Positions 30,054 to 45,428 of a stretch of 45,428 bases of DNA are shown here, in pieces. The stretch comes from Kiritimatiellales bacterium (lineage in GTDB: Bacteria; Verrucomicrobiota; Kiritimatiellia; Kiritimatiellales; Pontiellaceae), in the NCBI GenBank assembly GCA_021734345.1, contig JAIPJC010000009.1:1-45428 (forward strand). The letters run 5' to 3'. The translations under genes and the position numbers were made by a program. Every line of letters begins with the position of its first letter. Positions within the stretch are counted from its first letter, which is position 1. The notes under the pieces were generated by a model that saw nothing but the letters and a program-made list of their open reading frames with translations, made no database searches and was not told the origin of the DNA.

Positions 30054-31859
30054 TTATTGCGGCAGTTCGTCCGGCAGCCCGGGGGAAGGCTTCCAATCTC
30101 CGGCGGCGTTGCGGGCGAAGGTGACATCCATCTGGCCAAGATTGTCGGACTTGTCAACGTAGCCAAGGCGGTAGGTGATGGTTTGTCCGCTGTAGTCGCG
30201 CTTTTCCGCAACGTTGACGCGGATATTGGTATAGTGGCGCTCGAACACACGGAAGGCGCGTTCGGAGTCGGGCATGATCTTCAACAGAACCGGTTCGGCG
30301 GATGGGTCGTCCATTTTCTGGAGCGCGGCATAGAACGGCGAGTTTGTCAGTTCTTCACCCTTCGCCAGCTTCCCTTTGAGGATGCCGATGAGCGGATCAA
30401 GCGCACGGTGGTCGCCCATCTCGCCCAGTATGGCCGCGGCATGGCTGGCGATAAGGTTGTTGCGGTCGTAGAGGGCCGCGAGAAGCGGGAATACAGCTAG
30501 ATCACCTGCGGCGACGAGCCGTTCCTTGGCCATTTGCTGGTTGGCTTCCCCGCGGAACCGGTCGACGCTCCTTTTAATGACCGGCATGCCGGCCTCGTCA
30601 ACATCCGGCTGTTCCGGCGGTGGGACGGTTTCATCGCTGAGCAACCGGATGAGTAGGGGCGTGGTTTCGCGTGTTGGTGCGAAGTCGGGGGCGCTGATGA
30701 CCCGGAAGGCGGTGCGGCCTTGGGCTTGCAGGTTGGCTGCGGTGGCCTTGTCGAGCGCGTAGGCGGGATTGAGAGCCGTAAGAGCGCCCCATAGATCGAG
30801 GCGCCACGAAGGCGCTCCGCTCCAGGTGGAGCGTGCATTGAACCACATGCGACCCGCCGGACCGGCATGGCTCGTCGCGGCTGCCACGGCTTTTGCGGCA
30901 CAGGGCTGGCCGATATTTTCAAGCGCGCGAAAGGCATGGTTGCGGAAGGTGGAAACGTTGTGGCCGGCGGCTTCGAGCAGGGTGTCGACCGCATCGCCAT
31001 CCATGCGGGCGAGCTGGTCGACCAAAGCCATGTCAAGGTCGGTTTTATTGCCAACCGCCACACGGGCGAGTTCGTACCAGATCAGGTTTTCCCCCGAGGT
31101 CGGAATCGCGTTCAGGCCTTGCAGTACGGCAATCGCGCCTTGACGCATGGCTTCGTTGTCGTCCCTAAGGGCATCAAGTGCTGCCGGGACGGAAGGTGTT
31201 CCGATGGAAACGAGCGATGCGGTCACGGCTGTGCGCACAGTGTCGTTGTCGTCGGCCATGGCGCCAATGAGGCCCTTGATGGCGGCGGAACCTTTTGTGC
31301 TGCCAAGCGCCTGGGCGCAGGCCAAACGTAGCGTGGGCGAGGGAGCCTTTAGTTTTTCCGCCAGCGGTCCGCTGGCCTTTTCTTCGCCGATGGCGCCCAA
31401 CGAGGAGGCAACCGCGCATTGCACGGGTTCCGCGGAATCGTCGAGTGCGGCTATCAGCGCATCGACCGCATGGGTGGCATTCAGCGTTCCGAGTCCGGTT
31501 GCGGCGAGGGCGCGAGCATTGCTGTTCGTAAGCTGCAGGGCGCTGATTAGATGTCCGGTTGCCGGACCGTTGCCGATCGCCACCAAGGCGTCGATCGCTC
31601 TCAACCCAACTGAGCTTTCGGGATCGTTGAACAAGGCTGCGAGCGGCTCAACCGCCGCTTCGGCCTTTAGTTCGCCCAGTGCCGTTGCGGCTGCTTGGCG
31701 TATATTGGCCTTGGGATCCTGGAGCGCGCCGATCAGTTTTTCAACATTGCCCTTGGCTTTCCACTTGGCAATGTCGCTACTGGTGCGGCTGCAACCGACC
31801 AAGCCAAGCATTAGGATGGCGGCCATGGCCGCGAACGCTAGTTTCGTTGTTTTTTGCAT
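30054..31859 (-). CDS. HEAT-repeat lipoprotein
   Basis: A 601-residue lipoprotein: signal peptide with lipobox (LGLVGC), then many tandem HEAT/PBS-lyase-type helical repeats (for example NIRQAAATALGELKAEAAVE, and the later ALDPLIGIL). A C-terminal domain of about 70 residues follows (YTNIRVNVAEKRDYSGQ). HEAT repeats form a protein-binding scaffold; here it is probably anchored in an envelope membrane. The start at 31859 is chosen for the signal peptide; a longer frame to 32210 overlaps the regulator gene and is a shadow. Function unknown. Confidence 0.85.
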   Translation of the reverse strand: MQKTTKLAFAAMAAILMLGLVGCSRTSSDIAKWKAKGNVEKLIGALQDPKANIRQAAATALGELKAEAAVEPLAALFNDPESSVGLRAIDALVAIGNGPATGHLISALQLTNSNARALAATGLGTLNATHAVDALIAALDDSAEPVQCAVASSLGAIGEEKASGPLAEKLKAPSPTLRLACAQALGSTKGSAAIKGLIGAMADDNDTVRTAVTASLVSIGTPSVPAALDALRDDNEAMRQGAIAVLQGLNAIPTSGENLIWYELARVAVGNKTDLDMALVDQLARMDGDAVDTLLEAAGHNVSTFRNHAFRALENIGQPCAAKAVAAATSHAGPAGRMWFNARSTWSGAPSWRLDLWGALTALNPAYALDKATAANLQAQGRTAFRVISAPDFAPTRETTPLLIRLLSDETVPPPEQPDVDEAGMPVIKRSVDRFRGEANQQMAKERLVAAGDLAVFPLLAALYDRNNLIASHAAAILGEMGDHRALDPLIGILKGKLAKGEELTNSPFYAALQKMDDPSAEPVLLKIMPDSERAFRVFERHYTNIRVNVAEKRDYSGQTITYRLGYVDKSDNLGQMDVTFARNAAGDWKPSPGLPDELPQ

Positions 31860-31992
31860 CGTTTTATTTCCCCTTAGCCAACTCAACGCCCCAGCTTCCA
31901 ATGTTTGGACGGAGGGAACCCCTTTTGCCTTAAAAACATACACGTTCGTTTTACAACGTGCAAGAACCCGCCCTTTGTTAGAATGGAGTCGC

Positions 31993-33201
31993 TCAGGGGC
32001 GGAACGACTTGCGGTATTTTGCCGGCGTGATGCCCATTCCTTTGCGGAACTGCTTGATAAAGTAGCTCTGGTCGCCGAAGCCGGTTTCGTAGGCGATGTC
32101 GGTGCAGGACATTTCGCTGGTTTCGAGCAGGCGGCGGGCTTCCTGGATGCGGAGGTATTGGATGTTCTGCAGCGCGGTTTTCCCGGTGGATTCCTTGAGC
32201 AGATGGGCAATGCGGAAAGTACTGAGCCCGGCGGCGGCGGCCACGTTTTCGAGGGTGATGGGTTCGGTGTAGTTGGCGGCGATATAGTCCAGCGCCTTGC
32301 TCACGGCGGGGCTGACGGGGTTGACGCCTTGGAGAAAAATGCTGTTCATGAAGTCGTCGAGCGCTTCGAGCAGCACGTTGCAAAGGTCGTCGAAATCCTT
32401 GGTGTCGACAATCCGTTCGATCCACCCCATGTGCCGTTCGAGCAAGGGTTCCATCAAGGGGCTATCCTCGACGGCAGCACGCACGAGGTAGCCCATCATC
32501 TCGATGGCGCGCGCGCGCACGACGACTTGCTTCGGCGAATAGAGGAACATGGCGGCGAGCATCTTGTTGAAGATCTTGCGGGCTCCGGCGCGGTCGCCAA
32601 CCCGGATGAGGGAAAGCAGGATGCGCTCGTCGTCGTAGGGATAGGCGCGGTTCTGTTCGACCTTGCGCTGGTGGATCTCCTCGGCGATCTGCCGTTGCTG
32701 TATCATGCTTCCGCGGTTGCGCCGCAGCTGCACGGGGTTCCATCCGCTGTATTGGTAGAACAGCCGGAAAAGCTCGTCCGCCGCCTCGCGAATCCGTTCC
32801 TGTTCGAGGGCCGGCAGCTTCCGCACAAAGGCGTCCGCCTCCTTGCGGCTGGCACCTTCCGCCGAAAAATAATTCACGGCGGCATGGAGACTGGCCGGGT
32901 CGTCGTCGATCAGGATGGTGCCGCCGAGCAACCCGCCGCGCAGTTCGGAACCTTCGATCAGCGGCACGATCCAGCTCATCACCCCGGGGGCGACAAAGAA
33001 GGCCTGGGGTTCGCCCCACCGCACGCATTCCCCGAGGGCATGCGCCAAGGTGCGGTTTACGGCCGGCAGCTTCGCCACCGCGCCTACGGCCTCCGGCAGC
33101 TTCTGCACGCCTTGCGGATCCACCAGGCCGATGGAGAACCCATAGGCCGCACGGTAATCCTTGGCGACAGAATCAAAGAGGCGTTTTGACAAGATCGGCA
33201 T
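31993..33201 (-). CDS. PocR-domain AraC-family regulator of the one-carbon island
   Basis: A 402-residue regulator. The N-terminal part (about 1-170) resembles the PocR sensory domain (FSIGLVDPQGVQ; CVRWGEPQAFFVAPGVMSW), a fold used to sense small molecules, often hydrocarbon derivatives or methylated compounds. A helical linker follows, and the last 100 residues are an AraC double helix-turn-helix (ITLENVAAAAGLSTFRIAHL; CTDIAYETGFGDQSYFIKQF). The start at 33201 has GGAG 5 bases upstream. It is divergent from folD, whose promoter carries the first of four identical-layout elements. It is probably their activator. Confidence 0.88.
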   Translation of the reverse strand: MPILSKRLFDSVAKDYRAAYGFSIGLVDPQGVQKLPEAVGAVAKLPAVNRTLAHALGECVRWGEPQAFFVAPGVMSWIVPLIEGSELRGGLLGGTILIDDDPASLHAAVNYFSAEGASRKEADAFVRKLPALEQERIREAADELFRLFYQYSGWNPVQLRRNRGSMIQQRQIAEEIHQRKVEQNRAYPYDDERILLSLIRVGDRAGARKIFNKMLAAMFLYSPKQVVVRARAIEMMGYLVRAAVEDSPLMEPLLERHMGWIERIVDTKDFDDLCNVLLEALDDFMNSIFLQGVNPVSPAVSKALDYIAANYTEPITLENVAAAAGLSTFRIAHLLKESTGKTALQNIQYLRIQEARRLLETSEMSCTDIAYETGFGDQSYFIKQFRKGMGITPAKYRKSFRP

Positions 33202-33381: not shown

Positions 33382-34281
33382 ATGCAACACTCCAATATCG
33401 ATGGCCGCGCAGTCGCGGAAAAGATGCTTGAGACCGTGCGGGCCGATGTGGCCGTGCTTAAAAAGGAGCACTGGTCGCCCACGCTGGTTTCCATCAAGAT
33501 CGGTGACAATCCGGCGGTGGACCGGTATGTGCGCAACCAAAAGCGCAATGCCGATCAGGTGGGAATCGAGTTTGTGGAGCGGCATTATCCGGCCGATATT
33601 TCGGCCGACGAGGTCAGTGCTGCAATCGTCCACCTCAATGTGGATCCCACCGTGACGGGTATCATTCTACAGCGGCCGGTTCCCGAACATATTCCGATCA
33701 AGGCCTTGCAGGAGACCATTCATCCGATGAAGGACGTCGAGGGGATGCATCCGAAATCCATCGGAAACATTGTCTACGGGGAGTTGGAGCTTGGCCCATG
33801 CACGGCGATGGCTTCGGTCGAGTTGCTGAAGAGCACCGGCCTTAAACTGAAAGGACTCGAAGCCACGGTGATCGGGCACTCCGAGATTGTCGGCAAACCG
33901 ATTGCCTTCCTGCTGATGGCCGAGGGCGCGACGGTGACCGTGTGCCACCACATGACACGCGAAGTGACGGTGCATTCGCGCCGTGCCGATGCGGTATTCG
34001 TTGCCGTTGGCAAGGCGGGGCTGCTCACCGGCGACATGATCAAGCCGGGGGCGGTGGTCATCGATATCGGTATCAACACGGTCGAGGGGGCGGACGGAAA
34101 ACCAAAGCTGGTTGGCGACTGCGACTATGAATCCTGCCTGAAAACCGCCGGCTGGATCACGCCCGTGCCCGGCGGTGTCGGGCCGGTAACGGTTGCCATC
34201 CTCATGCGCAATACCGTGATCGCCGCCCGCCGCCTGCAGCGGCAATACACGAAACAGTTCCAGGCCAATACGGTCGTCTAG
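33382..34281 (+). CDS. folD: FolD-like methylene-tetrahydrofolate dehydrogenase (variant active site)
   Basis: FolD oxidises methylene- to methenyl-tetrahydrofolate and normally hydrolyses it to formyl-tetrahydrofolate. The 299 residues cover the two FolD domains and end with the TPVPGGVGPVTVAILM signature. Variations stand out: the catalytic Lys of the Y-x-x-x-K motif is Gln53 (YVRNQKR), KDVDG is KDVEG (Glu120), PCTP is PCTA, and the cofactor loop GRS is GHS (residues 165-167). The conserved Gln97 is kept. It may be a dehydrogenase only, possibly NAD-linked; this is inference from family knowledge. It forms the first of four units sharing the same promoter element. Confidence 0.88.
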   Translation: MQHSNIDGRAVAEKMLETVRADVAVLKKEHWSPTLVSIKIGDNPAVDRYVRNQKRNADQVGIEFVERHYPADISADEVSAAIVHLNVDPTVTGIILQRPVPEHIPIKALQETIHPMKDVEGMHPKSIGNIVYGELELGPCTAMASVELLKSTGLKLKGLEATVIGHSEIVGKPIAFLLMAEGATVTVCHHMTREVTVHSRRADAVFVAVGKAGLLTGDMIKPGAVVIDIGINTVEGADGKPKLVGDCDYESCLKTAGWITPVPGGVGPVTVAILMRNTVIAARRLQRQYTKQFQANTVV

Positions 34282-34376
34282 GCTTGATCGGCGCATCACA
34301 TTGGCAAGATTGATATATCTCTGCTTCGGTTTCGGTGCGTTAATTAGGAATAAACAACCACATTATCCGTATAAAA

Positions 34377-34438
34377 CAGCAAGAACGCCACATTTCAAAA
34401 ACCAAACCTTCTATCGAAACCCCAGACCGCCACATAGG
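34377..34438 (+). promoter_or_regulatory. Regulon promoter element B (metF-fusion/focA/fhs)
   Basis: CAGCAAGA at 34377, CA-T-TTC at 34391-34396 and TTCTATC at 34409-34415, then CATAGG at 34433-34438. Spacing is identical to element A. The start codon follows 24 bases after the -10-like hexamer. Confidence 0.8.
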
Positions 34439-34462
34439 ATGTGGCACATAACTAGGAGAACC

Positions 34463-36904
34463 ATGAAGAGACTCAAGCAAGTATTGGCCGATGCATCCGG
34501 GTTTGCGGTTATCGCCGAATTAACGTCGGGGCCGGGCTATGACATGGCTCCCATCAAGCAGTTCCTTTCCACATACAGGGAAGCCGGCGCGGGAGCCATT
34601 CCGCTTGGGTTCGACTTTGCCGGCATCGCCCTGCCGCAGAATCCCGGCGGCGTTTCCAATCTCGATCCGTCGGATGTGCTGGCGCAGCTGGATGCCACCG
34701 GGCTGCTCGACAACCTCGACTATATCCCGCATCTCAGCTGCAAGGACCACAACAAGTCCGCTCTGAGCTCGATGCTGATCGGCTACAGGCAGCGCGGCGT
34801 TGAAAGCATTCTCGCGCTGACCGGCGACAAGCCCGTGTCCGCCAAGGGCGTGTTCGAAGTCGAGTCGGTCGGGCTGCTGCAAATGGTCTCCAAGATGAAC
34901 CGTGCCGAAATCCTGAAGGCCAGCCCGGCAACGCTCGGCAAGGTGGCGCAGTTTTTTGCCGGTGCGGCGGTCTCGCCGTTCAAGTACACCGAACCCTCGC
35001 TGATGCAGCAATACTACAAGATGGAGAAGAAGGTCGCCGTTGGCGCAAGGTTCCTCATCACGCAGGTGGGCTGGGACTGGCGGAAGTCGCTTGAACTGAT
35101 GACCTATCTCGACGAGGCGAAATTGACTGTGCCTGTGATCGGCAACGTCTTTTTCCTGAGCACCGCAAACCCCGCGCCGCGGTTGATGCACGACGGCAAG
35201 CTGCCGGGCTGCTACGTGAGCGACGCCTTGCTCGAAAAGCTCAAGTCCGAATCGTTCGCGGCGCAGGTAGAGCGTGCGGCGCAGCAGGTGGCGATGTACC
35301 GGTCGATCGGCGCGGCCGGCGTGGACATCGGCGGCGTGCATGATTTTGAAACCTTCAAAACCATTCTTGCGCGTGCCGCGGAGATCGGCGACCGCTGGAC
35401 GGATTTCAAGGACAACCTCTACTGGCCACCGGCAGACGCCTACTATCTCTACGACGACGAAGGCCGCCGGAACGAAACGCCGAAAAACCAGCCGACCGCG
35501 CACGACCGCCGGTTCAACTTCATGCACAACACCCTGCTCGATCCCGACCGCAAGGGTTTCCACCTGCTGGAAAAAACCATGGAGAAGGCCGGGGCGAAAA
35601 AAAATCCCAACGGGTTGGCGGGGCGTACGCTCTTCGCCATGGAGCGGGCGATCAAGCATGCCGCGTTCGAGTGCGAAGAGTGCGGCGACTGTTTCCTCGC
35701 GGAAAACTTCGGCTACTGCACGATGGGCGGCTGCGCCAAGGGATTGGCCAATGCGCCGTGCGGCGATGCCAAGGTCGACGGAACCTGCGGCAACGAGAAG
35801 GGCGTGGTTTGCCGGGGCGAGCAGATCTATCTGGCCGCGAAGGCGCAGGAGGGCGGACTGGCGCGGCTGCGGAAAACGATCAACAGTCCGCGCATCGCTT
35901 CGCTGGAGCATAGTTCATCCATCCTCAACTATTTATTTGGAAAGGACCACACCATGAAAAATGCAATCATCACGATCGGCGAAGACATCCATGCTTCCAT
36001 CCCGAAGAACGGTGCCGTCATGCGCGAGCTGCATGCCCTCGGTGCAGGGGCCTACGAAAAAGAGAGTCCGCAACTCGATTATGTCCGCGCGCTGATTGAA
36101 AACCAGGCGGCGGAAGGCGCGGACTATCTCGCCATCAACGTCGATGCCTTCGGCGAGTCCGATCCGCAGCTTGCCGTCGATATCATGGTGGAATACGTGA
36201 AGCTCGTCCGCCAGTGGGGCGGCACGGTTCCGGCCTGCATCGACAGCAGCAACAACAACGTGCTGATGGCCGGGCTGAAGGAGTGGTACAACACGACCGA
36301 TCCGGTGAAGCCGCCGTTGGTGAACTCGATCAAGGTGTACTCGGCCGACACCATGATGCCGCTGAAAAAGGAATACGACTTTTCGTTTGTGGGCCTGCTG
36401 ATGAGCGAAGGCGCGCCGACCGGGCCGGGCGGCTCGCATTCCGTCGAGGAGCTCTACGCCATTGCAGAAGAAATTTTCGACCAAGCCATACTGCATGGAT
36501 TCAAGCCGGAAGAAATCTTCTTCGACTCGACCGTGTATCCGCTCGCCATCGATATGCCGATGCAGCCGGGCGTTCCCGGCTACACCTACCGCGCCTTCCA
36601 AACCATGAAGGCCATCAGGAGCAATCCGAAAATGAAGGGTGTGCATTTCTCGATGGGCGTGAGCAACTGCTGCCGCGACCTGCCCGGACGGAAGGTTGGC
36701 ATCTGCCGCGCCTATGTGGAAAAGGCGATGGAGTATGGCTTGGATGCGGGCATCGTGAACGCCGCCCATAAATACGGCGCAACGCCGGCCGACCCCAGTC
36801 TGGTCAAGCTGGTGGCCGCCTATGCCGAAATGGATGGCGACATGGACAAGACCAACGATGCCATCGAACTCATGGGCGATTTCTGCGACAGCCTGCGCAA
36901 GTAG
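34463..36904 (+). CDS. Fusion of methylene-H4F reductase, MTHFR_C domain and methyl-H4F methyltransferase
   Basis: An 813-residue protein in three parts. Residues about 1-310 are a MetF-type TIM barrel (methylene-tetrahydrofolate reductase). Residues about 315-465 are the MTHFR_C domain with cysteines at 404, 407, 410, 419, 424, 433, 442 and 450, of the type found in MetV. Residues 498-813 are a pterin-binding (DHPS-like) barrel as in methyl-tetrahydrofolate:corrinoid methyltransferases such as AcsE (DYLAINVDAFGES; ACIDSSNNNVLMAGL; NSIKVYS; NCCRDLPGR). It would couple methyl transfer from corrinoid to folate with oxidation of the methyl group, or the reverse. A ribosome-site-like GGAAAGGA precedes Met498. 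The start at 34463 has AGGAG upstream. Confidence 0.88.
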   Translation: MKRLKQVLADASGFAVIAELTSGPGYDMAPIKQFLSTYREAGAGAIPLGFDFAGIALPQNPGGVSNLDPSDVLAQLDATGLLDNLDYIPHLSCKDHNKSALSSMLIGYRQRGVESILALTGDKPVSAKGVFEVESVGLLQMVSKMNRAEILKASPATLGKVAQFFAGAAVSPFKYTEPSLMQQYYKMEKKVAVGARFLITQVGWDWRKSLELMTYLDEAKLTVPVIGNVFFLSTANPAPRLMHDGKLPGCYVSDALLEKLKSESFAAQVERAAQQVAMYRSIGAAGVDIGGVHDFETFKTILARAAEIGDRWTDFKDNLYWPPADAYYLYDDEGRRNETPKNQPTAHDRRFNFMHNTLLDPDRKGFHLLEKTMEKAGAKKNPNGLAGRTLFAMERAIKHAAFECEECGDCFLAENFGYCTMGGCAKGLANAPCGDAKVDGTCGNEKGVVCRGEQIYLAAKAQEGGLARLRKTINSPRIASLEHSSSILNYLFGKDHTMKNAIITIGEDIHASIPKNGAVMRELHALGAGAYEKESPQLDYVRALIENQAAEGADYLAINVDAFGESDPQLAVDIMVEYVKLVRQWGGTVPACIDSSNNNVLMAGLKEWYNTTDPVKPPLVNSIKVYSADTMMPLKKEYDFSFVGLLMSEGAPTGPGGSHSVEELYAIAEEIFDQAILHGFKPEEIFFDSTVYPLAIDMPMQPGVPGYTYRAFQTMKAIRSNPKMKGVHFSMGVSNCCRDLPGRKVGICRAYVEKAMEYGLDAGIVNAAHKYGATPADPSLVKLVAAYAEMDGDMDKTNDAIELMGDFCDSLRK

Positions 36905-36928: not shown

Positions 36929-37780
36929 ATGGAAACAGCAATCACCGATGCATACATGCCGGCCGAGATGGCGAAACGGGCGGAAGCCTCGGCCATCCGG
37001 AAAGCCAACCGCAGCTTCATCGATTCGTTTTTCCTGGCCATCCAGGCCGGGTCGTTCATCGCCTTCGGCGCGGCGTTCTTCACGCTTACGATCCACGACT
37101 CGGCGCTGGGCGTCGGCCTGACCCGGTTGATTGGCGGCATGACGTTTTCGCTGGGGCTGATCTTCGTCATCATCGCGGGAGCCGATCTGTTTACCGGCGA
37201 TACGCTGATGGTGATGGCCTGCCTGAGCCGGAAGATCACGTGCCGCCAAATGCTGCGCAGCTGGGTGTTTGTGTTGTTTGGCAATCTGGCCGGGTCGCTG
37301 GTGATCGTATGGCTTATTTCACTGAGCGGCCATTGGCTGGGCCACGGCGGCGCGGTGGGCGCCGCGGCTTTGTCCATCGCCAACGACAAGGTCAACATGA
37401 CGTTTGTGCAGGCGCTCGCGAGCGGGATGCTGTGCAACATCCTGGTCTGCCTCGCCATTTGGCTCTGCTTCAGCAGCCGCTCGGTGACCGACAAGATCCT
37501 GTCGATCGTTCCGCCCATCACCGCGTTTGTGGCCCTGGGTCTCGAACATTCGATTGCCAACATGTATTTCATCCCGGCCGGACTCGTGTTGAAGCACAGC
37601 CCGCAGATTATCGCCCTGCTCAACGGGGCGGATCTGTCGAATCTCACGGTGCATGGTTTCGTGTTCAGGAACCTGGTTCCGGTCGTGATCGGCAACATGG
37701 TCGGTGGCGCGATATTTATTGGCTTAGTGTACTGGATTCTTTACCTTCGCAAACCTACTGAAAATGGAGACAACCCATGA
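36929..37780 (+). CDS. focA: Formate/nitrite-family channel (FocA-like)
   Basis: A 283-residue inner-membrane protein with six helices and the family signatures: the [12 protein letters not shown] loop and the [11 protein letters not shown] loop with the channel His (His209 in FocA). It moves formate, nitrite or hydrosulfide; beside formyl-tetrahydrofolate synthetase formate is most likely. It overlaps fhs by 4 bp (ATGA), so it is translationally coupled. In an oxidative pathway it would export formate; import is also possible. Confidence 0.9.
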
Positions 37781-39540
37781 AACTTGATCCAACCAAAATG
37801 GCGGACTGGCAGATTGCCGAAGCCGCCGAACAGAACATCAAACCGATCCAGGAAATTGCCGCCAAACTCGGATTGAAGCCGGGCGAGCTGATCCCCATGG
37901 GACGGAACGTCGCCAAGATCGATTACAACAAAACCTGGCAGCGCCTCAAAAACGCGCCCATCGGCAAGTATGTCGACGTCACCGCCATCACGCCCACTCC
38001 GCTCGGCGAAGGCAAGACCACCACAACCATGGGGCTCGTCGAAGGCCTCGGTGTGATCGGCAAGAGGCCGGTCGGGGCCATCCGCCAGCCCAGCAGCGGC
38101 CCGACCTTCAACATCAAAGGCTCCGCCGCCGGCGGCGGTCTAGCGCAGTGCATACCGCTCGCCCCGTTTTCGCTCGGGCTCACTGGCGATTTCGATGCCA
38201 TCACCAACGCGCACAATCTTGCGATGGTGGCGCTGACCGCCCGCATGCAACACGAAAGCAACTACGACGATGCGAAGCTGAAGCAGCTCGGCCTCAAGCG
38301 GCTGGATGTCGATCCCGAACGCGTACAGTTGAAGTGGGCGATGGACTTCTGCGCCCAGGCGCTGCGCAACATTACCATCGGCCAAGGCGGCCATATGGAC
38401 GGCTTCGAAATGCAGTCCGGCTTCCAGATCACCGTCTCCAGTGAAATCATGGCCATCCTGGCCGTGGCCAGCAGCTTGAAGGACATGCGCGAACGCATCG
38501 GCAAGATGGTGGTGGCCTACAGCCGCAGCGGTAAGGAAGTGACCACCGCCGACCTCGAAGTGGACGGCGCCATGACCGCCCTGATGGTCGACGCGCTCAA
38601 TCCCAATCTCGTGCAGACCATTGAAGGCAATCCGGTCCTCGTCCATGCCGGTCCCTTCGCCAACATTGCCATTGGCCAAAACTCGGTCATCGCCGACATG
38701 CTTGGCATCCGCATGGGCGACTACCTCGTAACGGAAAGCGGGTTTGCCGCCGACATCGGCTTTGAAAAATTCTGGAACCTGAAGTGCCGCTACTCCGGGC
38801 TAAAACCAGATGCTGTCGTGATTGTCGCCACGGTGCGCGCCCTTAAGATGCATGGCGGGGGGCCATCCGTAAAACCAGGCAAGCCGCTCGACTCCGCCTA
38901 CACGGAAGAAAACCTCGGACTGCTCGAAGAGGGTTGCGCCAATCTGGTTGCGCATATCAACATCGTCAAGCAAAGCGGGGTCAGTCCGGTGGTCTGCATC
39001 AACGGGTTCTACACCGACACCCAGGCCGAACACGATCTCGTCCGGCGCATCGCCGAACAAAACGGTGCGCGCTGCGCGGTATCCGAGCATTGGCTCAAGG
39101 GGGGTGAAGGCGCGGTCGAGTTGGCCGAGGCCGTCGTCGCCGCCTGCGAAGAGGAACACCATTTCGAATACCTCTATGATCTCGACATGCCGTTCAAGGA
39201 TCGCGTCTACACGATCGCCACCAAAATCTATGGTGCATCGGGCGTTGATTGGTCGGAGCTGGCCGAAAAGAAAATCGCACTTTACGAGGCCGACCCCGAA
39301 GTCAAAAAAATGGGTATGTGCATGGTGAAGACCCACCTCAGCCTGTCGCACAACCCGGACTTCAAGGGCGCGCCGAAAGACTGGATCCTGCCGATCCGCG
39401 ATGTGCTCATCTATAAGGGTGCAGGTTTTGTCGTGCCGGTTGCCGGCGACATCAAGCTGCTGCCGGGCACGGGATCGAATCCGGGATTCCGCCGGATCGA
39501 CGTGGATGTGGATACGGGCAAGGTGACAGGATTGTTCTAG
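37777..39540 (+). CDS. fhs: Formate-tetrahydrofolate ligase
   Basis: It interconverts formyl-tetrahydrofolate + ADP + phosphate with formate + tetrahydrofolate + ATP. The 587 residues carry the P-loop-like [16 protein letters not shown] and the [19 protein letters not shown] signature. The length is somewhat over the usual 555-560. Run towards formate, it makes ATP by substrate-level phosphorylation, as in methyl-oxidising anaerobes; run the other way, it fixes formate. The gene ends the metF-fusion/focA/fhs unit. Confidence 0.95.
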
Positions 39541-39659: not shown

Positions 39660-39701
39660 ATACGGAAGATGGAGTTGAACGTTTAAACGGAGGAAATGGT
39701 T

Positions 39702-40328
39702 ATGGCCAAAAATGAAGCATTGTTTGAAGCAGTACTAAAAGGCAAACGCAAGGATGTTGCCGAAATCGTCCAGCAGGAAGTGGACAAGGGAACCAACGTT
39801 GCCGAAATCCTGATGGGTTCCATGGTACCGGCGATGGCGGAGATCGGCGACCGCTTTTCACGCAACGAAGCCTATGTTCCGGAAATGCTGATTGCCGCAC
39901 GCGCCATGCAGGCGGGACTGAACATTCTCGATCCGCTGCTTACGCAGGCCGGCCACAAGCCGCTCGCCAAGGTCGCCATCGGAACCGTCAAGGGCGACCT
40001 GCACGACATCGGCAAGAACCTCGTCGGCATGATGCTCAAGGGTGCCGGGTTTGAAGTGATGGATCTGGGCGTCGACTGCGACATTGAAAAATACAAGGAA
40101 GCCGTCGAAAACGGTGCCCAATGCGTTCTGCTGAGCGCACTGCTCACCACCACCATGCCCTACATGAAGGAAGTCGTTTCCGGCTTGGCAGGCTGTGGTG
40201 CGAAGATCCTCATCGGCGGGGCTCCGGTCACGCAGCAGTATGCAGACGAGATCGGTGCGGACGGCTACTCCAACGATGCCAACACCGCGGTGAAGGCCAC
40301 CAAGGTTGTGCTGGGTCTTGCAGCCTGA
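39702..40328 (+). CDS. Methyltransferase corrinoid protein (MtaC/MtbC/MttC-like)
   Basis: A 208-residue carrier that shuttles the methyl group on cobalt. A helical cap of about 85 residues is followed by the B12-binding fold with the cobalt-ligating His101 in GDLHDIGKN, the SALLTTTM loop and GGAPVT. The start at 39702 has GGAGGA 8 bases upstream; the ATG at 39696 is too close to it. The next gene encodes its probable reactivase. The partner that loads it with methyl groups is not in the window. Confidence 0.93.
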   Translation: MAKNEALFEAVLKGKRKDVAEIVQQEVDKGTNVAEILMGSMVPAMAEIGDRFSRNEAYVPEMLIAARAMQAGLNILDPLLTQAGHKPLAKVAIGTVKGDLHDIGKNLVGMMLKGAGFEVMDLGVDCDIEKYKEAVENGAQCVLLSALLTTTMPYMKEVVSGLAGCGAKILIGGAPVTQQYADEIGADGYSNDANTAVKATKVVLGLAA

Positions 40329-40352: not shown

Positions 40353-41993
40353 ATGTCCGTAATCTTCAACCTTGAAGGACGGTCGGTCGCTGTCGAATCC
40401 GACAGCGACCGTACTGTTTTGGAGCTGGCCCGCAAAGCCGGGTGGCACATCGATGCCAAGTGCGGCGGCAGGGGATCGTGCGCCAGCTGCAACGTGTTGC
40501 TCGGTGCCGGCCGCTACCGGGTCTTTGGCGAAGAAATCGAAGTGGCTCCCGACATGCGCCGCGAGGTGCTCTCCTGCCAAACCCGCATCCTTAGTGAAAC
40601 GGCTGAAATCTTCATTCCACGGGCCTCCATTCTTTCGTTCGACGGTGCGCGCATTGCCGATGAAATGGATATTCCCGAACACACCTTCAGTCCGCTTTTT
40701 CCGGACGGCTACGGCTTGGCCGTCGATATTGGAACCACCACCGTTGTCGCCGCCCTGATCGACCTGCGCGACGGAACCATCGTCAGCCGCGAATCGCTCT
40801 ACAACCAGCAGATCCTCAAGGCCGACGATGTTGTTTCACGCATCTCGCTTTGCAGCGAAGCGGGCAACCTCGAAGCACTGCAGGAGCTGGTGATTGCGCA
40901 CACGCTCAACCCGCTGGTCCACAAGCTATGCGACGGAACGGGCGTGGCCAGGGAACGCATCGTCCACTGCGCCGTATCCGGCAACACGGTGATGATGCAT
41001 ATCTTCTTCGGCGTGTCGCCCGTCAGCATCGGCGTAATTCCCTTCAAGCCCGTCAGCCGGACATTCGAGGCCAAGGCGCATGCGCTCCGTATCGACATCG
41101 GACCCGATGCCCGCGTCGAAGCCATCCCCGCCATTTCCGGCTACGTCGGCGGCGACATCACCTCCGATATCCTCGCTTCCAATCTCTGGAACCGCGATGG
41201 CCTGACCGTACTGATCGACATCGGCACCAACGGCGAAATGGTTGCTTGCCTCGACGGGCAAATGAGTGCTTGTGCCACCGCAGCCGGCCCGGCTTTCGAA
41301 GGTGCCGGACTGCTGCACGGTACGCGCGCCGCCAGCCGCGCCATCGATACCATCGCGTTCGACGAAAGCCTCGACTTCCAAATCACCGTCATTGGCGACC
41401 CCAATCCTATGGGGCTATGCGGCTCCGCCATCATTGACTTCATCGCCTGCGGCTTCCGCTGCGGACTGATCAATATGCTCGGCCGCTACGATGTCGAACT
41501 GCTCAAATCCAGAAGTTGCCACGAAACCGTTGCCGGCATGCACGCCTGCGTGCTGGTGCAGGCCGAAGATTCCGCCACCGGCGAAACGATCACGGTTACC
41601 GAATACGACATCGCCGAAATCCTAAAAGCCAAGGCCGCGATCTATTCCGGGCTAAAGACCCTGCTGGCCGAGCTTGGTAAAACCGTGCGCGACATCGACC
41701 GCGTCATTCTCGCTGGGGGATTCGCCAAGCACATCAACCTCGAAAACGCCATTTGCATCGGACTGCTTCCCGATATTGGAACCGGAAAATACGAAGTGAT
41801 CGGCAACGGTTCGCTCGCCGGGGCCTCCCTCGCGGTGCTCGACCGGTCCGCGGCGCAGACCTACCTCGAAATCATCGAACGGCCACAGATCGTCACGCTC
41901 AACAAAACCGCCACTTTCACCAACTATTTCCAGGAGGCGCTCGCCATTCCCAACCTTGACGAAGACGACTTTCCGAGCATCGTAAAACCATGA
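40353..41993 (+). CDS. Corrinoid-protein reductive activase, RACE/RamA-like (DUF4445)
   Basis: It restores inactive Co(II) corrinoid protein to Co(I) with ATP and an electron donor. The 546 residues have an N-terminal plant-type [2Fe-2S] domain with Cys37, Cys43, Cys46 and Cys75, a linker, and a large ASKHA ATPase-like domain (VDIGTTTVVAALI; LIDIGTNGEM; ILAGGFAKHI). This is the RACE type with [2Fe-2S], not the archaeal RamA with [4Fe-4S] clusters. It lies between the corrinoid protein and DUF1638 genes and overlaps the latter (ATGA). Confidence 0.92.
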   Translation: MSVIFNLEGRSVAVESDSDRTVLELARKAGWHIDAKCGGRGSCASCNVLLGAGRYRVFGEEIEVAPDMRREVLSCQTRILSETAEIFIPRASILSFDGARIADEMDIPEHTFSPLFPDGYGLAVDIGTTTVVAALIDLRDGTIVSRESLYNQQILKADDVVSRISLCSEAGNLEALQELVIAHTLNPLVHKLCDGTGVARERIVHCAVSGNTVMMHIFFGVSPVSIGVIPFKPVSRTFEAKAHALRIDIGPDARVEAIPAISGYVGGDITSDILASNLWNRDGLTVLIDIGTNGEMVACLDGQMSACATAAGPAFEGAGLLHGTRAASRAIDTIAFDESLDFQITVIGDPNPMGLCGSAIIDFIACGFRCGLINMLGRYDVELLKSRSCHETVAGMHACVLVQAEDSATGETITVTEYDIAEILKAKAAIYSGLKTLLAELGKTVRDIDRVILAGGFAKHINLENAICIGLLPDIGTGKYEVIGNGSLAGASLAVLDRSAAQTYLEIIERPQIVTLNKTATFTNYFQEALAIPNLDEDDFPSIVKP

Positions 41994-42736
41994 AATTCAA
42001 ATTGATCAGCTGCGAAATATTTTTCCGGGAGATGGAGTTCCTGTTGGAACAGTCGCCCCACAAGATCGACGTGGAGTTCATGCAGAAAGGGCTGCACGAT
42101 ATTCCCGCCGATGAAATGCTGAAGCGCTTGCAGGCGCAGGTCGATGCCGCGGCGGAGCAGGAGTACGACACGATCCTCCTCGGCTACGGACTCTGCAACA
42201 ATGGACTAAACGGACTGAAGTCGCGCGGCGTCCAGCTGGTGCTGCCGCGCGCCCACGATTGCATTACCCTGTTCCTCGGCAGCCGCGCGCGCTACCAGGA
42301 CTATTTCTTTTCGCATCCCGGCACCTACTTCAAAACCACCGGATGGATCGAGCGCGACAAGATCGCCGATGAGCTCAAGCAGCTCAGCATCCCGAACCAG
42401 ACGGGCATGGACATGAGCTACGCCGAACTCGTCGAGCAATACGGCGAAGACAACGCCGAGTATCTGTGGGAAGAACTCTGCAACACCGAAAAAAACTATT
42501 CGCAAATCACCTTCATAGAAATGGGCGTCGAGCCCGACGATTCGTTCGAAAAGATCGCCAAGGACGAGGCCGTTTCCAAACATTGGAATTTTGAAAAGGT
42601 TCCCGGCGACCTCGGCCTGCTCCGGCGGTTGCTTTCCGGAGACTGGAACCCCGACGACTTCCTTGTTGTTCCACCGCGCCGGGAAATTGCAGCCAACCAT
42701 ACCGAGCACATTGTCGAGCTCAAGTCCGGCAACTAA
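41990..42736 (+). CDS. DUF1638 protein
   Basis: A 248-residue protein with the family signature LLGYGLCNNGLNGL, PRAHDCITLFLGS and the PGTYFKTTGW segment. DUF1638 genes are commonly found beside corrinoid methyltransferase genes in methanogens and anaerobic bacteria; the biochemical role is unknown. Conserved Cys and His (AHDC) could bind a metal. It overlaps the RACE gene by 4 bp and ends this unit. Confidence 0.88.
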   Translation: MKFKLISCEIFFREMEFLLEQSPHKIDVEFMQKGLHDIPADEMLKRLQAQVDAAAEQEYDTILLGYGLCNNGLNGLKSRGVQLVLPRAHDCITLFLGSRARYQDYFFSHPGTYFKTTGWIERDKIADELKQLSIPNQTGMDMSYAELVEQYGEDNAEYLWEELCNTEKNYSQITFIEMGVEPDDSFEKIAKDEAVSKHWNFEKVPGDLGLLRRLLSGDWNPDDFLVVPPRREIAANHTEHIVELKSGN

Positions 42737-42841: not shown

Positions 42842-44218
42842 ATGACCGGGAAAAATCTACTTTTACAGGCAGTACAAGGAAAAGAAACCGAACGCCCCGC
42901 ATGGCTTCCCTTTGTCGGATGCCATGGCGGGTTCCTCATCGGCAAGACCGCGACGGAATATCTCCAGTCGGCGGAGTTGATGGTTGAGGGGCTGAAGAAA
43001 GCAAAAGCGTTATATAAACCGGATGGGCTTCCGGTGGCCTTCGACCTTCAGATCGAAGCCGAAATTCTCGGTTGCAAGCTCCATTGGGCGGACGAAGTCC
43101 CCCCGGCAGTAACCAGCCACCCGTTGGCGCTGGGCAAGAAGATTTCCGATCTGCCGGAACTCGATGAAACCAAGGGGCGCTTTCCGATCATTGTCCAGAC
43201 GCTTGAAGCCTTGAAAACCGAGATGGGCGGCGATACAGCGCTTTACGGTTTGATCTGCGGCCCATTCACCCTCGCGCTCCATCTGCTCGGCAACGACATC
43301 TTCCTCGATATGTACGATGAGGAGGACTACGTGCTCGAAGTGATCGACTACTGCGCCGACATTTGCATCAAGTCGTCCAACATCTATCTGGACCACGGCG
43401 CGGACGTGATCGGGGTGGTTGATCCGATGACCAGCCAGATTTCTCCAAGCCATTTCGAACAGTTCGTCACGCCGGCCATGAACAAGGTGTTCGACCACAT
43501 CCGCGCACGTGGCGGGATCTCCTCCATTTTCGTCTGCGGCGACGTGACCCGCAATCTAGAGGTGATGGCCAAGACCCGCGCCGACAACATTTCGGTCGAT
43601 GAACAGATCGACATGGCCCAACTGCGCGGACTTTGCGAGGCGGAGAAAAAGTCGTTCGGCGGCAATATCAAGTTGACCGCCGTGCTCCTGCTCGGCGACG
43701 AGGACGACGCGAAAATGGAAGTACTCGACATCATGGAAAAGAGCGGCAACAAGGGCTTCATTCTGGCTCCGGGCTGCGATCTGCCCTACGCGGTTCCTTC
43801 CCAAAACCTGGTTGCGGTTGCAAGCATGGTTCATGATCCCTATGCCCGCGAAGCTGCGAAGTCGCTTCAGACCAAGGCCTCCGACTCGTTCGACGATATC
43901 GAGCTTCCGGACTATCATGGCGCCCGCGCCGTGGTGGCCGATGTCATCACGCTCGACTCCACCTCCTGCGCGCCCTGTCAATATATGATGGAGGCGGTTC
44001 AAAAGGCGGCCGACAAGGCGATGGTCAAGGTCTGGATCAACGAACACAAGATCAAGGTGCGCGAAGGCATCGGCATGATGGTCAAACTGGGTGTGAAGAA
44101 CCTGCCGACCATCTGCATCAACGGCGAGCCGACCTTCGCATCGATCATTCCCGATCAGGCCACGTTGGTAAAAGCCATCGAGCAGGCCGCCCTGCCGAAA
44201 ATGTCGGTCACTTCCTAA
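42842..44218 (+). CDS. MtaA/uroporphyrinogen-decarboxylase-like protein fused to a thioredoxin-like domain
   Basis: A 458-residue protein. Residues about 1-345 form a URO-D barrel of the MtaA/CmuA methyltransferase type. Residues about 362-455 form a thioredoxin-like domain with Cys376 and Cys379 (STSCAPCQYM) and a cis-Pro-like NLPTICINGEP. Zinc-dependent MtaA proteins use H-x-C and a later Cys; here the first position is Phe230 (SIFVCGD) while Cys232 and Cys312 (APGCDLP) are kept. It may thus use another zinc ligand or be a non-classical methyltransferase. It heads the last unit and has GGAG upstream. The substrate is unknown. Confidence 0.85.
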   Translation: MTGKNLLLQAVQGKETERPAWLPFVGCHGGFLIGKTATEYLQSAELMVEGLKKAKALYKPDGLPVAFDLQIEAEILGCKLHWADEVPPAVTSHPLALGKKISDLPELDETKGRFPIIVQTLEALKTEMGGDTALYGLICGPFTLALHLLGNDIFLDMYDEEDYVLEVIDYCADICIKSSNIYLDHGADVIGVVDPMTSQISPSHFEQFVTPAMNKVFDHIRARGGISSIFVCGDVTRNLEVMAKTRADNISVDEQIDMAQLRGLCEAEKKSFGGNIKLTAVLLLGDEDDAKMEVLDIMEKSGNKGFILAPGCDLPYAVPSQNLVAVASMVHDPYAREAAKSLQTKASDSFDDIELPDYHGARAVVADVITLDSTSCAPCQYMMEAVQKAADKAMVKVWINEHKIKVREGIGMMVKLGVKNLPTICINGEPTFASIIPDQATLVKAIEQAALPKMSVTS

Positions 44219-44249: not shown

Positions 44250-45152
44250 ATGATTCCCATTTGCCTGATCACGGGTTTTCTAGGAACGGGTAAGACCACG
44301 CTGCTCAAGCGCATCGTGGCTGAAAACCGCGACCGGAAATGGATCTATCTGATCAACGAGTTTTCCGCGCTCGATGTGGACGGGGCGATTGTCTCGGAGG
44401 GGAATCCGGACGTGGTTTCCATCCCCGGCGGCAGCATCTTCTGCAAGTGCCTCGTGACCGAGTTCATCCGGCAGATGGCGCAGATCCGCTGGCAACATCC
44501 GGATGCCGAAGGCGTGGTGATCGAAGCGAGCGGCATGGCCGATCCGCGCGTGATCGCCGACATGCTGAAAGAGACAGGACTCGGCGACTATTTCGAATTG
44601 GCCAATATCGTCAGTATCGTCGAGCCGCGCAGTTTTCTGCGCCTCATCCACACGCTGCCGAATATTATCCATCAGGTTGAAGCGGCCGACATCGTTCTCT
44701 TGAACAAGTGCGACTTGTACGGCGGGGAAAAACTGGCGGAGATGGAAACGGCAATCCGCAACATAAAACCGGCGGCCAACATCGTCCGCTGCGTCCATGC
44801 TGAAGTCGATTTTCCAATCTTTGGCGGCGGAATCGACCACGGCATGCTGCACGGGGAATATGCCAAGTGCCGCGATCCTCGCTTCGCCTCCTTCTCGACC
44901 ATCTTCGACCATCCCGTCGATCCTGCGGTGGTTGAAAAACTCATTCTGGGAAACGAGGATTCGATCTATCGCGTCAAAGGCTATCTCCAAACCTTGGAAG
45001 GCCCTGTCTACTTCGACTATTCCAAGGCCGGATTTTCCATTTCCCCATCAGGGCCGAAAAAGGAATACGGACTGGCATGGGTCGTTCGAGGTGGAGCCGA
45101 AGAATATTTGAAACCAACAGAACTGTGCGCTATCCTGCGCGGCAACCATTAA
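44250..45152 (+). CDS. CobW/COG0523 G3E GTPase
   Basis: A metal-chaperone-type GTPase of 300 residues: Walker A GFLGTGKTT near the start, a variant of the metal-binding C-x-C-C motif (FCKCLV), the EASGMADP segment and the NKCD guanine-specificity motif. COG0523 proteins insert zinc or cobalt-type metals into target enzymes. Between an MtaA-like gene and a homocysteine methyltransferase gene, both families of zinc-site enzymes, loading one of these is plausible but inferred. A short C-terminal domain follows after residue 200. Confidence 0.85.
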   Translation: MIPICLITGFLGTGKTTLLKRIVAENRDRKWIYLINEFSALDVDGAIVSEGNPDVVSIPGGSIFCKCLVTEFIRQMAQIRWQHPDAEGVVIEASGMADPRVIADMLKETGLGDYFELANIVSIVEPRSFLRLIHTLPNIIHQVEAADIVLLNKCDLYGGEKLAEMETAIRNIKPAANIVRCVHAEVDFPIFGGGIDHGMLHGEYAKCRDPRFASFSTIFDHPVDPAVVEKLILGNEDSIYRVKGYLQTLEGPVYFDYSKAGFSISPSGPKKEYGLAWVVRGGAEEYLKPTELCAILRGNH

Positions 45153-45165
45153 TCAGGAGCGGCAA

Positions 45166-45428
45166 ATGCACGATACCATCGCGATGCTATTGAAAGAACG
45201 TCCGGTCATAATCGACGGAGCTTGGGGAACCGAACTTCAGAAACAAGGATTGAAGCCCGGCGAATCGCCGGAAGCGCTGAATCTGGAACGACCGGAACTC
45301 GTCGAAGCCGTCGCCGCGTCGTATGTGGCGGCCGGCAGCCCGATCATCATCACCAACACCTTTGGCCGGACCCGCTTCACGCTCGAACGCCACCGGCTGG
45401 CCGGCAACGTGGCCGAGGTGAACCGCAT
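45166..45428 (+). CDS. Homocysteine S-methyltransferase-family protein (5' part)
   Basis: The frame is open from an ATG at 45166 (AGGAG upstream) to the right edge, 87 complete codons. It begins like the Hcy-binding domain of MetH/BHMT (VIIDGAWGTELQKQGL; LNLERPELVEAVAASYVAAG; IITNTFGRTR). The zinc Cys residues would be beyond the edge. It may be a stand-alone methyl acceptor/donor enzyme for the corrinoid protein or the first domain of a larger one. Confidence 0.85.
   Translation, partial: MHDTIAMLLKERPVIIDGAWGTELQKQGLKPGESPEALNLERPELVEAVAASYVAAGSPIIITNTFGRTRFTLERHRLAGNVAEVNR

Follow-up and report, generated by a model that had tools for sequence, protein, structure and literature searches.

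UroD-Trx, a conserved variant of UroD-type corrinoid methyltransferases with a fused thioredoxin-like domain

Described methyltransferase systems and the present gene cluster

The protein considered here, UroD-Trx, joins a methyltransferase barrel of the URO-D/MtaA type to a thioredoxin-like domain. The methyltransferases MtaA and MtbA (structure 4ay7) resemble it in the barrel fold (Z 42, rmsd 1.9), in the two ligand cysteines, which are both kept, and in a corrinoid protein encoded nearby, whereas UroD-Trx has Phe for the first His, Asp for Glu, and one or more additional thioredoxin domains. To our knowledge, coenzyme M is not to be expected in these bacteria. A further likeness is the COG0523-type gene nearby, as in methanogens according to the available part of PMC2770081, in which the motif CXCC is said to mark COG0523 and COG0523 subfamily 13 to co-localise with corrinoid methyltransferases.

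The Mlps of type 1 mlp clusters (Kountz and Balskus, PMC10418091, in its accessible text) likewise belong to the UroD superfamily and to the S/Se type, occur in anaerobes, and have a corrinoid protein and RACE adjacent. In contrast, the Mlps almost invariably carry His-Cys-Cys, some Mlps1 excepted, where UroD-Trx has Phe230; the same text mentions no thioredoxin fusion, whereas UroD-Trx is fused; and the type 1 clusters are presented there without a folate methyltransferase, which the operon studied here contains.

The split methionine synthase and MtgBCDE systems, as far as the available parts of PMC5764234 and PMC12478193 describe them, share with the present locus an MtgC-like corrinoid protein, RACE/RamA, DUF1638, and the pterin and homocysteine modules. 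Their donor module is MTTB (PF06253), whereas MTTB was not found here and UroD-Trx and a CobW-like protein are additional. In those parts, the DUF4445 (RACE-like) and DUF1638 genes of Phaeobacter inhibens are required for methionine synthesis, with B12 reactivation as their presumed task (PMC5764234), and in Ruegeria modules of this kind take part in the demethylation of glycine betaine (PMC12478193). The UroD-type MT1 enzymes (CdmB, O-demethylases) share the superfamily and corrinoid use; CdmB is zinc-free with an aromatic cavity in the portion of PMC13222342 available, whereas UroD-Trx keeps both cysteines. Finally, the small archaeal thioredoxins 1nho and 1fo5 match UroD-Trx by profile at residues 364–448 and 367–448 (E 1.6e-6 and 1.9e-6, respectively), with the difference that in UroD-Trx the thioredoxin is fused to a methyltransferase barrel.

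The window, that is, the whole stretch of 45,428 nucleotides analysed from a Kiritimatiellales bacterium, carries the gene order FolD, MTHFR/MeTr fusion, FocA, Fhs, MtxC, RACE, DUF1638, UroD-Trx, CobW-like and MetH-N. The run from FolD to MetH-N is an apparent operon, and the contig ends at 45428.

33382–34281, + strand: FolD (profile search)
34301–36904, + strand: fusion of MTHFR, the MTHFR C-terminal domain and a pterin-binding methyltransferase (profile search)
36929–37780, + strand: FocA-type formate channel (profile search)
37777–39540, + strand: formate-tetrahydrofolate ligase, Fhs (by eye from the translation, not by the family library; homologues at other loci)
39696–40328, + strand: MtgC/MtbC-like corrinoid protein, named MtxC here (profile search)
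40353–41993, + strand: RACE-type reductive activase, Fer2 plus RACo/DUF4445 (profile search)
41990–42736, + strand: DUF1638 protein (profile search), tied to B12 reactivation in the available part of PMC5764234
42842–44218, + strand: UroD-Trx gene (ATG start, 458 aa)
44250–45152, + strand: CobW-like G3E GTPase with C-x-C for CXCC (cobW, 3.4e-35)
45166–45426, + strand: protein with the N-terminal (homocysteine S-methyltransferase) domain of MetH, incomplete because the contig stops here (S-methyl_trans, 2.9e-14)

The protein encoded at 34301–36904 is a single chain of 867 aa uniting the MTHFR, MTHFR C-terminal (DUF5981) and pterin-binding methyltransferase domains. Among the 20 window ORFs scanned up to the contig end, one URO-D match was obtained; for a type 1 mlp cluster the minimum is an Mlp2 and an Mlp3. 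Most of the operon is present again at the homologous locus L007. Elsewhere in this genome there is a 1257-aa frame of MetH size with the B12-binding cap, and given this frame, methionine supply is unlikely as the operon's sole role. Upstream, the ORF at 31147–33189 (+) is probably not a gene, because it has no family match and overlaps the ORF at 30054–32210 (-), which has strong HEAT repeats.

Domain make-up and predicted metal site of UroD-Trx

A GGAGA sequence lies a short way upstream of the start codon of UroD-Trx. The features of the encoded protein are as follows.

42842–43840, + strand: URO-D/MtaA-type (beta/alpha)8 barrel, residues 1–333 (URO-D, E 8.6e-58; fold match 4ay8/4ay7)
42923–42925, + strand: His28, a candidate ligand in place of His230, located in the loop that follows strand 1 and invariant (80/80 and 37/37 rows; His at 28 in 0/14 MtaA-type paralogues)
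43529–43537, + strand: Phe230-Val231-Cys232, where MtaA has H-x-C (alignments, conservation)
43598–43603, + strand: Asp253-Glu254, aligned with VEE of MtaA (80/80 and alignment)
43775–43777, + strand: Cys312, aligned with the third MtaA ligand, Cys (80/80 and alignments)
43931–44206, + strand: thioredoxin-like domain, residues 364–455 (Pfam, profile alignment, model)
43967–43978, + strand: CAPC redox motif, residues 376–379 (both Cys kept in 80/80)

The preliminary description of this gene had proposed an MtaA-type barrel followed by a C-terminal thioredoxin-like domain with CAPC, and both domains were recovered. Pfam URO-D covers residues 4–332, and the AlphaFold model of the whole protein has a pLDDT of 92.8 and a pTM of 0.88. 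Among the 50 entries listed, the best fold matches of this model were the M. mazei MtaA structures 4ay8 (Z 42.2) and 4ay7 (Z 42.1), with an rmsd of 1.9 over 326 aligned residues; the 24% identity to MtaA comes from this structural alignment only, the criterion for Mlps being >25% to a characterised SCMT. Human UROD (Z 36.6), ApcE (27.4) and methionine synthases of the MetE kind (about 19–24) were lower in the same 50 entries; the comparison used the whole model, and families outside the listed matches are possible. UroD-Trx lies below all curated NCBIfam cut-offs (MtaA, 137 bits versus 400; MtbA, 143 versus 600; mtaA_cmuA, 160 versus 235), and an identity as HemE was ruled out by score (75 versus 303 bits) and by fold.

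For the C-terminal part, Pfam Thioredoxin_3 covers residues 373–445 (E 1.6e-5) at 25.3 bits versus a cut-off of 24.8, a score that is marginal for the window protein taken alone, and the same family scores 34 to 54 bits in four scanned relatives. In addition to passing the Pfam cut-off, UroD-Trx has the CxxC and the Pro before the third strand expected of Thioredoxin_3 (Pro422 in 79 of 80 rows, with one gap). This part of the model has the normal thioredoxin-like order of strands and helices, with CAPC opening the first helix.

In the alignment to M. mazei MtaA (4ay7), HICG faces FVCG (residues 230–233), and the APGC of the third-ligand region is kept as Cys312. The zinc ligands of MtaA, which we take to be His240, Cys242 and Cys319, agree in spacing with this alignment. 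The loss of the H-x-C histidine had been pointed out from the single sequence, and it holds throughout the relatives aligned: Phe230 is invariant in all rows of two sets. The first comprised 80 rows (the window and 79 relatives, L046 being left out for its broken frame), in which His28, Asp68, Gln70, Glu72, Glu74, Cys78, His93, Arg113, His147, Asp194, Phe230, Val231, Cys232, Gly233, Asp253, Glu254, Cys312, Asp313, Cys376 and Cys379 are invariant, among others. In a second draw of 37 rows, sharing some genomes with the first, the 15 positions checked, including His28, Phe230, Cys232, Asp253, Glu254, Cys312 and both CAPC cysteines, were all invariant. The site is not simply damaged, since both cysteines are kept and an invariant candidate histidine is at hand. 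As a case for an ordinary MtaA-type enzyme, and so against the preliminary interpretation, this counts at most by half: a complete site is predicted, through His28, but no characterised homologue was found.

Position 28 was compared in an alignment of short single-domain paralogues, in which 40 rows were reduced to 39 because L046 is a broken UroD-Trx. The 14 MtaA-type paralogues, which have H-x-C-G and Cys at 312, have Phe (9), Met (2), Pro (2) or Trp (1) at this position, and never His, so that the pairing of Phe28 with His230 is not universal; in the profile alignment, the corresponding residue of MtaA itself is Gly. L121, a short and highly divergent paralogue that is without H-x-C, does have His at position 28. 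Most glycan-type paralogues have H-S/T-C/D-G with His at the third ligand place, and in these position 28 is unreliable in the alignment. The profile alignment also places position 28 near the QAGRY stretch of UROD, which is presumably part of the active site. Judged from these alignments, His and Phe seem to have traded places, one position lying in the loop that follows strand 1 and the other at the end of strand 5. This looks like a relocated metal site, in which His28 may stand in for His230 as a metal ligand.

Its conservation marks UroD-Trx as a variant in its own right; the gene is not broken. The marginal thioredoxin score of the window protein would be expected if a degenerate or mis-assembled MtaA paralogue had acquired the domain by chance fusion, but the same fusion and the same residues occur in 80/80 and 37/37 rows from several phyla; decay, chimera and mis-assembly are ruled out on this ground, and we consider such an origin to have a negligible probability.

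A second reading of the same residues dispenses with the metal: Phe230 would belong to a hydrophobic pocket for the donor, on the pattern of CdmB, with His28 acting in catalysis and not as a ligand. The UroD-type methyltransferase (MTI) CdmB, which works without zinc and has an aromatic cavity (PMC13222342, in the portion available), sets a precedent. The invariant Cys232, Cys312 and Asp253 and the linked CobW-like GTPase argue instead for a metal, and we regard a zinc-free enzyme as quite unlikely.

Family extent and linkage to RACE

The genome scan gave 353 relatives of UroD-Trx among 405 candidate stretches, and the best 80 of the 353 were taken further. These come from Kiritimatiellota (including Pontiella sulfatireligans), Lentisphaerota, Planctomycetota and Bacteroidota, as well as from MAGs labelled Chlamydiae, Spirochaetes, Clostridia and others. 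A length near 545 aa is common among the homologues; of these longer proteins L041, L049 and L067 were scanned, and each carries two Thioredoxin_3 stretches. An apparent giant fusion in L130 (a 1373-aa frame) was rejected, because the available part looks to be an extended open frame of a GC-rich contig and not a fusion.

Within the phylum, 35 of 387 genomes have a match at E <= 1e-60; every full-length match exceeds 637 bits and spans both the barrel and the thioredoxin domain, the remainder being pieces. Since the other UroDs of a panel of 58 related genomes reach at most 162 bits, barring the contig-edge piece of one UroD-Trx, the family is discrete. In the tree, UroD-Trx forms a single clade (100/99), joined weakly to MtaA and two H-x-C paralogues (89/94); the placement beside MtaA is unsure because two long branches, MtaA and L121, come together at this point. 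An open-access literature search returned no paper on uroporphyrinogen decarboxylase with a thioredoxin domain and corrinoid, on methylated sugars with demethylation, corrinoid and anaerobic, or on Pontiella with methyl and corrinoid. UroD-Trx is a conserved variant of the UroD-type corrinoid methyltransferases of which the open-access literature searched gave no description.

Neighbouring genes were compared in 81 sources (the window and 80 loci, many on short contigs): CobW was found in 63, a corrinoid protein in 29, MetH-N in 14, a Met_synt_B12-like gene in 12, RACE in 9 and DUF1638 in 8. Homologues of the MTHFR/MeTr fusion are nearby in 6 of the 81 and Fhs in 3; the formate branch is therefore not general. 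A CobW-like gene starts within 600 nt downstream of UroD-Trx in 55 of the 72 sources with at least 1 kb there, and is absent downstream in 13 of the 72. Nearly all of 59 homologues of this neighbour (L003–L082) have C-x-C without the last Cys, followed by Leu, Thr, Ile or others. It is notable that an altered metal site adjoins an altered metallochaperone motif.

The preliminary description had suggested looking for the fusion near RACE genes, and the fusion proved to be widespread and to go with RACE. In the 58-genome panel, UroD-Trx is present in 19 genomes (18 full length and a contig-edge piece in G013) and RACE in 26, namely in all 19 carriers versus 7 of the 39 non-carriers (Fisher 7e-10, with the kinship of the genomes ignored). 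Within the genus, UroD-Trx and RACE occur in exactly the same 11 of 28 genomes. B12-binding_2 says nothing on linkage, because it is present in 56 of the 58 genomes. Across several phyla, RACE was found in 40 of 50 carrier genomes, which cover 50 of the 80 loci, and was not found in the other 10; in five of these (L027, L037, L071, L072 and L082), the locus includes a Met_synt_B12-like gene (L027, Pfam 1.7e-7).

The number of URO-D matches follows the same pattern. URO-D matches per panel genome have a median of 9 (4–22) in UroD-Trx carriers and 1 (0–29) in the others; the carriers are larger genomes overall, and size may explain part of this difference. Genomes without RACE have 0–7 matches, with 0 or 1 in 28 of 32, and those with RACE have 2–29. 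These counts, tracking the presence of RACE, suggest that the UroD paralogues are corrinoid-dependent. One genome (G017, 76% complete) has 7 URO-D matches and two frames of the size of small corrinoid proteins, and neither RACE nor UroD-Trx was found in it.

These distributions bear on two further readings. UroD-Trx could be an accessory factor with no metabolite of its own, maintaining a reduced, metallated state of the cysteines either in the other UroD methyltransferases or in the corrinoid protein. Such a task would suit a protein that occurs as a single full-length copy per panel carrier, tied to CobW and RACE and always in genomes with other UroDs. The many invariant barrel positions, all candidate ligands among them, are as for an enzyme, however, and seven RACE genomes with 2–29 URO-D matches manage without UroD-Trx, so that we hold this role to be very unlikely.

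Alternatively, UroD-Trx would be a stand-alone MT1 that loads the corrinoid protein with the methyl group of one small donor, a methyl thioether or methyl ether, and the part of the MT2s would fall to the folate and homocysteine enzymes. It is the sole donor-type enzyme in the window operon, beside a pterin-binding and a homocysteine MT2. Moreover, MTTB, the other methyl-donor family tested, was found in 3 of the 58 genomes, all with RACE and none with UroD-Trx; it was not found in this genome (85% complete) or in the other 18 panel carriers. Against this, UroD-Trx is never alone in the panel, since all 19 carriers have at least 4 URO-D matches, and among the 50 entries listed its nearest solved relative is MtaA, an MT2. 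We regard this possibility as somewhat unlikely.

Proposed function and implications

We propose, at about even chances, that UroD-Trx is a core corrinoid methyltransferase subunit with a thiol partner, in which the metal is bound through His28 for the lost His230 and the thioredoxin domain acts as a redox partner. Its methyl exchange would be with MtxC, the corrinoid protein encoded nearby, whose active reduced state would be maintained by RACE and DUF1638. The metal, most likely zinc, would be held by Cys232, Cys312, Asp253 and His28, and would be inserted by the dedicated CobW-like GTPase. His-Cys-Cys sites favour S/Se according to the accessible text of PMC10418091, and by the same reasoning the two Cys ligands would point to a thiol (or selenol) partner. 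The preliminary description had raised a thiol acceptor, redox control or a new reaction; as read from the protein sequences, the kept cysteines together with the thioredoxin domain would favour thiol chemistry for UroD-Trx, and the fused domain would most likely serve to keep either the thiol partner or the cysteines of the metal site in reduced form. In this genome, the next acceptor of the methyl group might be tetrahydrofolate, with formate as the end product (MeTr/MTHFR fusion, FolD, Fhs and FocA), or else homocysteine (MetH-N). The substrate, the direction of transfer and the role as MT1 or MT2 are likewise put forward tentatively. A common subunit of the corrinoid:thiol type is mildly preferred to a donor enzyme for a single substrate, because MtaA is the closest fold among the 50 entries listed, because of the linkage to corrinoid activation, and because other UroDs are present in every panel carrier.

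Some neighbourhoods contain sugar genes, which may hint at methyl sugars. A LacI regulator, a xylose-isomerase-like gene and an FGGY kinase adjoin UroD-Trx in L068, and a rhamnose isomerase and a rhamnosidase are near it in L026, there being no control for neighbours in either case. Short UroD genes directly adjoin GH29 alpha-L-fucosidases at L115:6595–9302, L116:6104–8703 and L123:6801–9343; the UroDs of L116 and L123 are near-identical in two species, and this adjacency, likewise without a control, is suggestive at most. According to the available part of PMC7356697, L-fucose and fucoidans support growth of Pontiella, but methanol does not. Sulfatases near UroD paralogues were set aside as evidence for methyl sugars, having no control in genomes that are sulfatase-rich (PMC7356697). 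Fatty-acid-desaturase-like proteins occur near UroD paralogues of anaerobes at L118:7419–8840 (a Rieske fusion) and L005:13623–14651.

A more speculative and, in our estimate, unlikely extension is a new system of anoxic glycan demethylation, in which many short UroDs, some of them adjoining the sugar genes named above, would strip O-methyl groups from sugars onto one corrinoid protein and UroD-Trx, with its His ligand moved to another strand, would be the common second methyltransferase to a thiol, the thioredoxin domains serving as a relay. A metal ligand shifted on the barrel of an enzyme that is conserved across several phyla would offer a clean natural experiment on partner choice in zinc methyltransferases. 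The close association of UroD families with RACE points to a corrinoid methyltransferase role for the large and mostly unexplained UroD families found in glycan-degrading anaerobes; this, if true, would provide an anoxic route for the methyl groups of polysaccharides.
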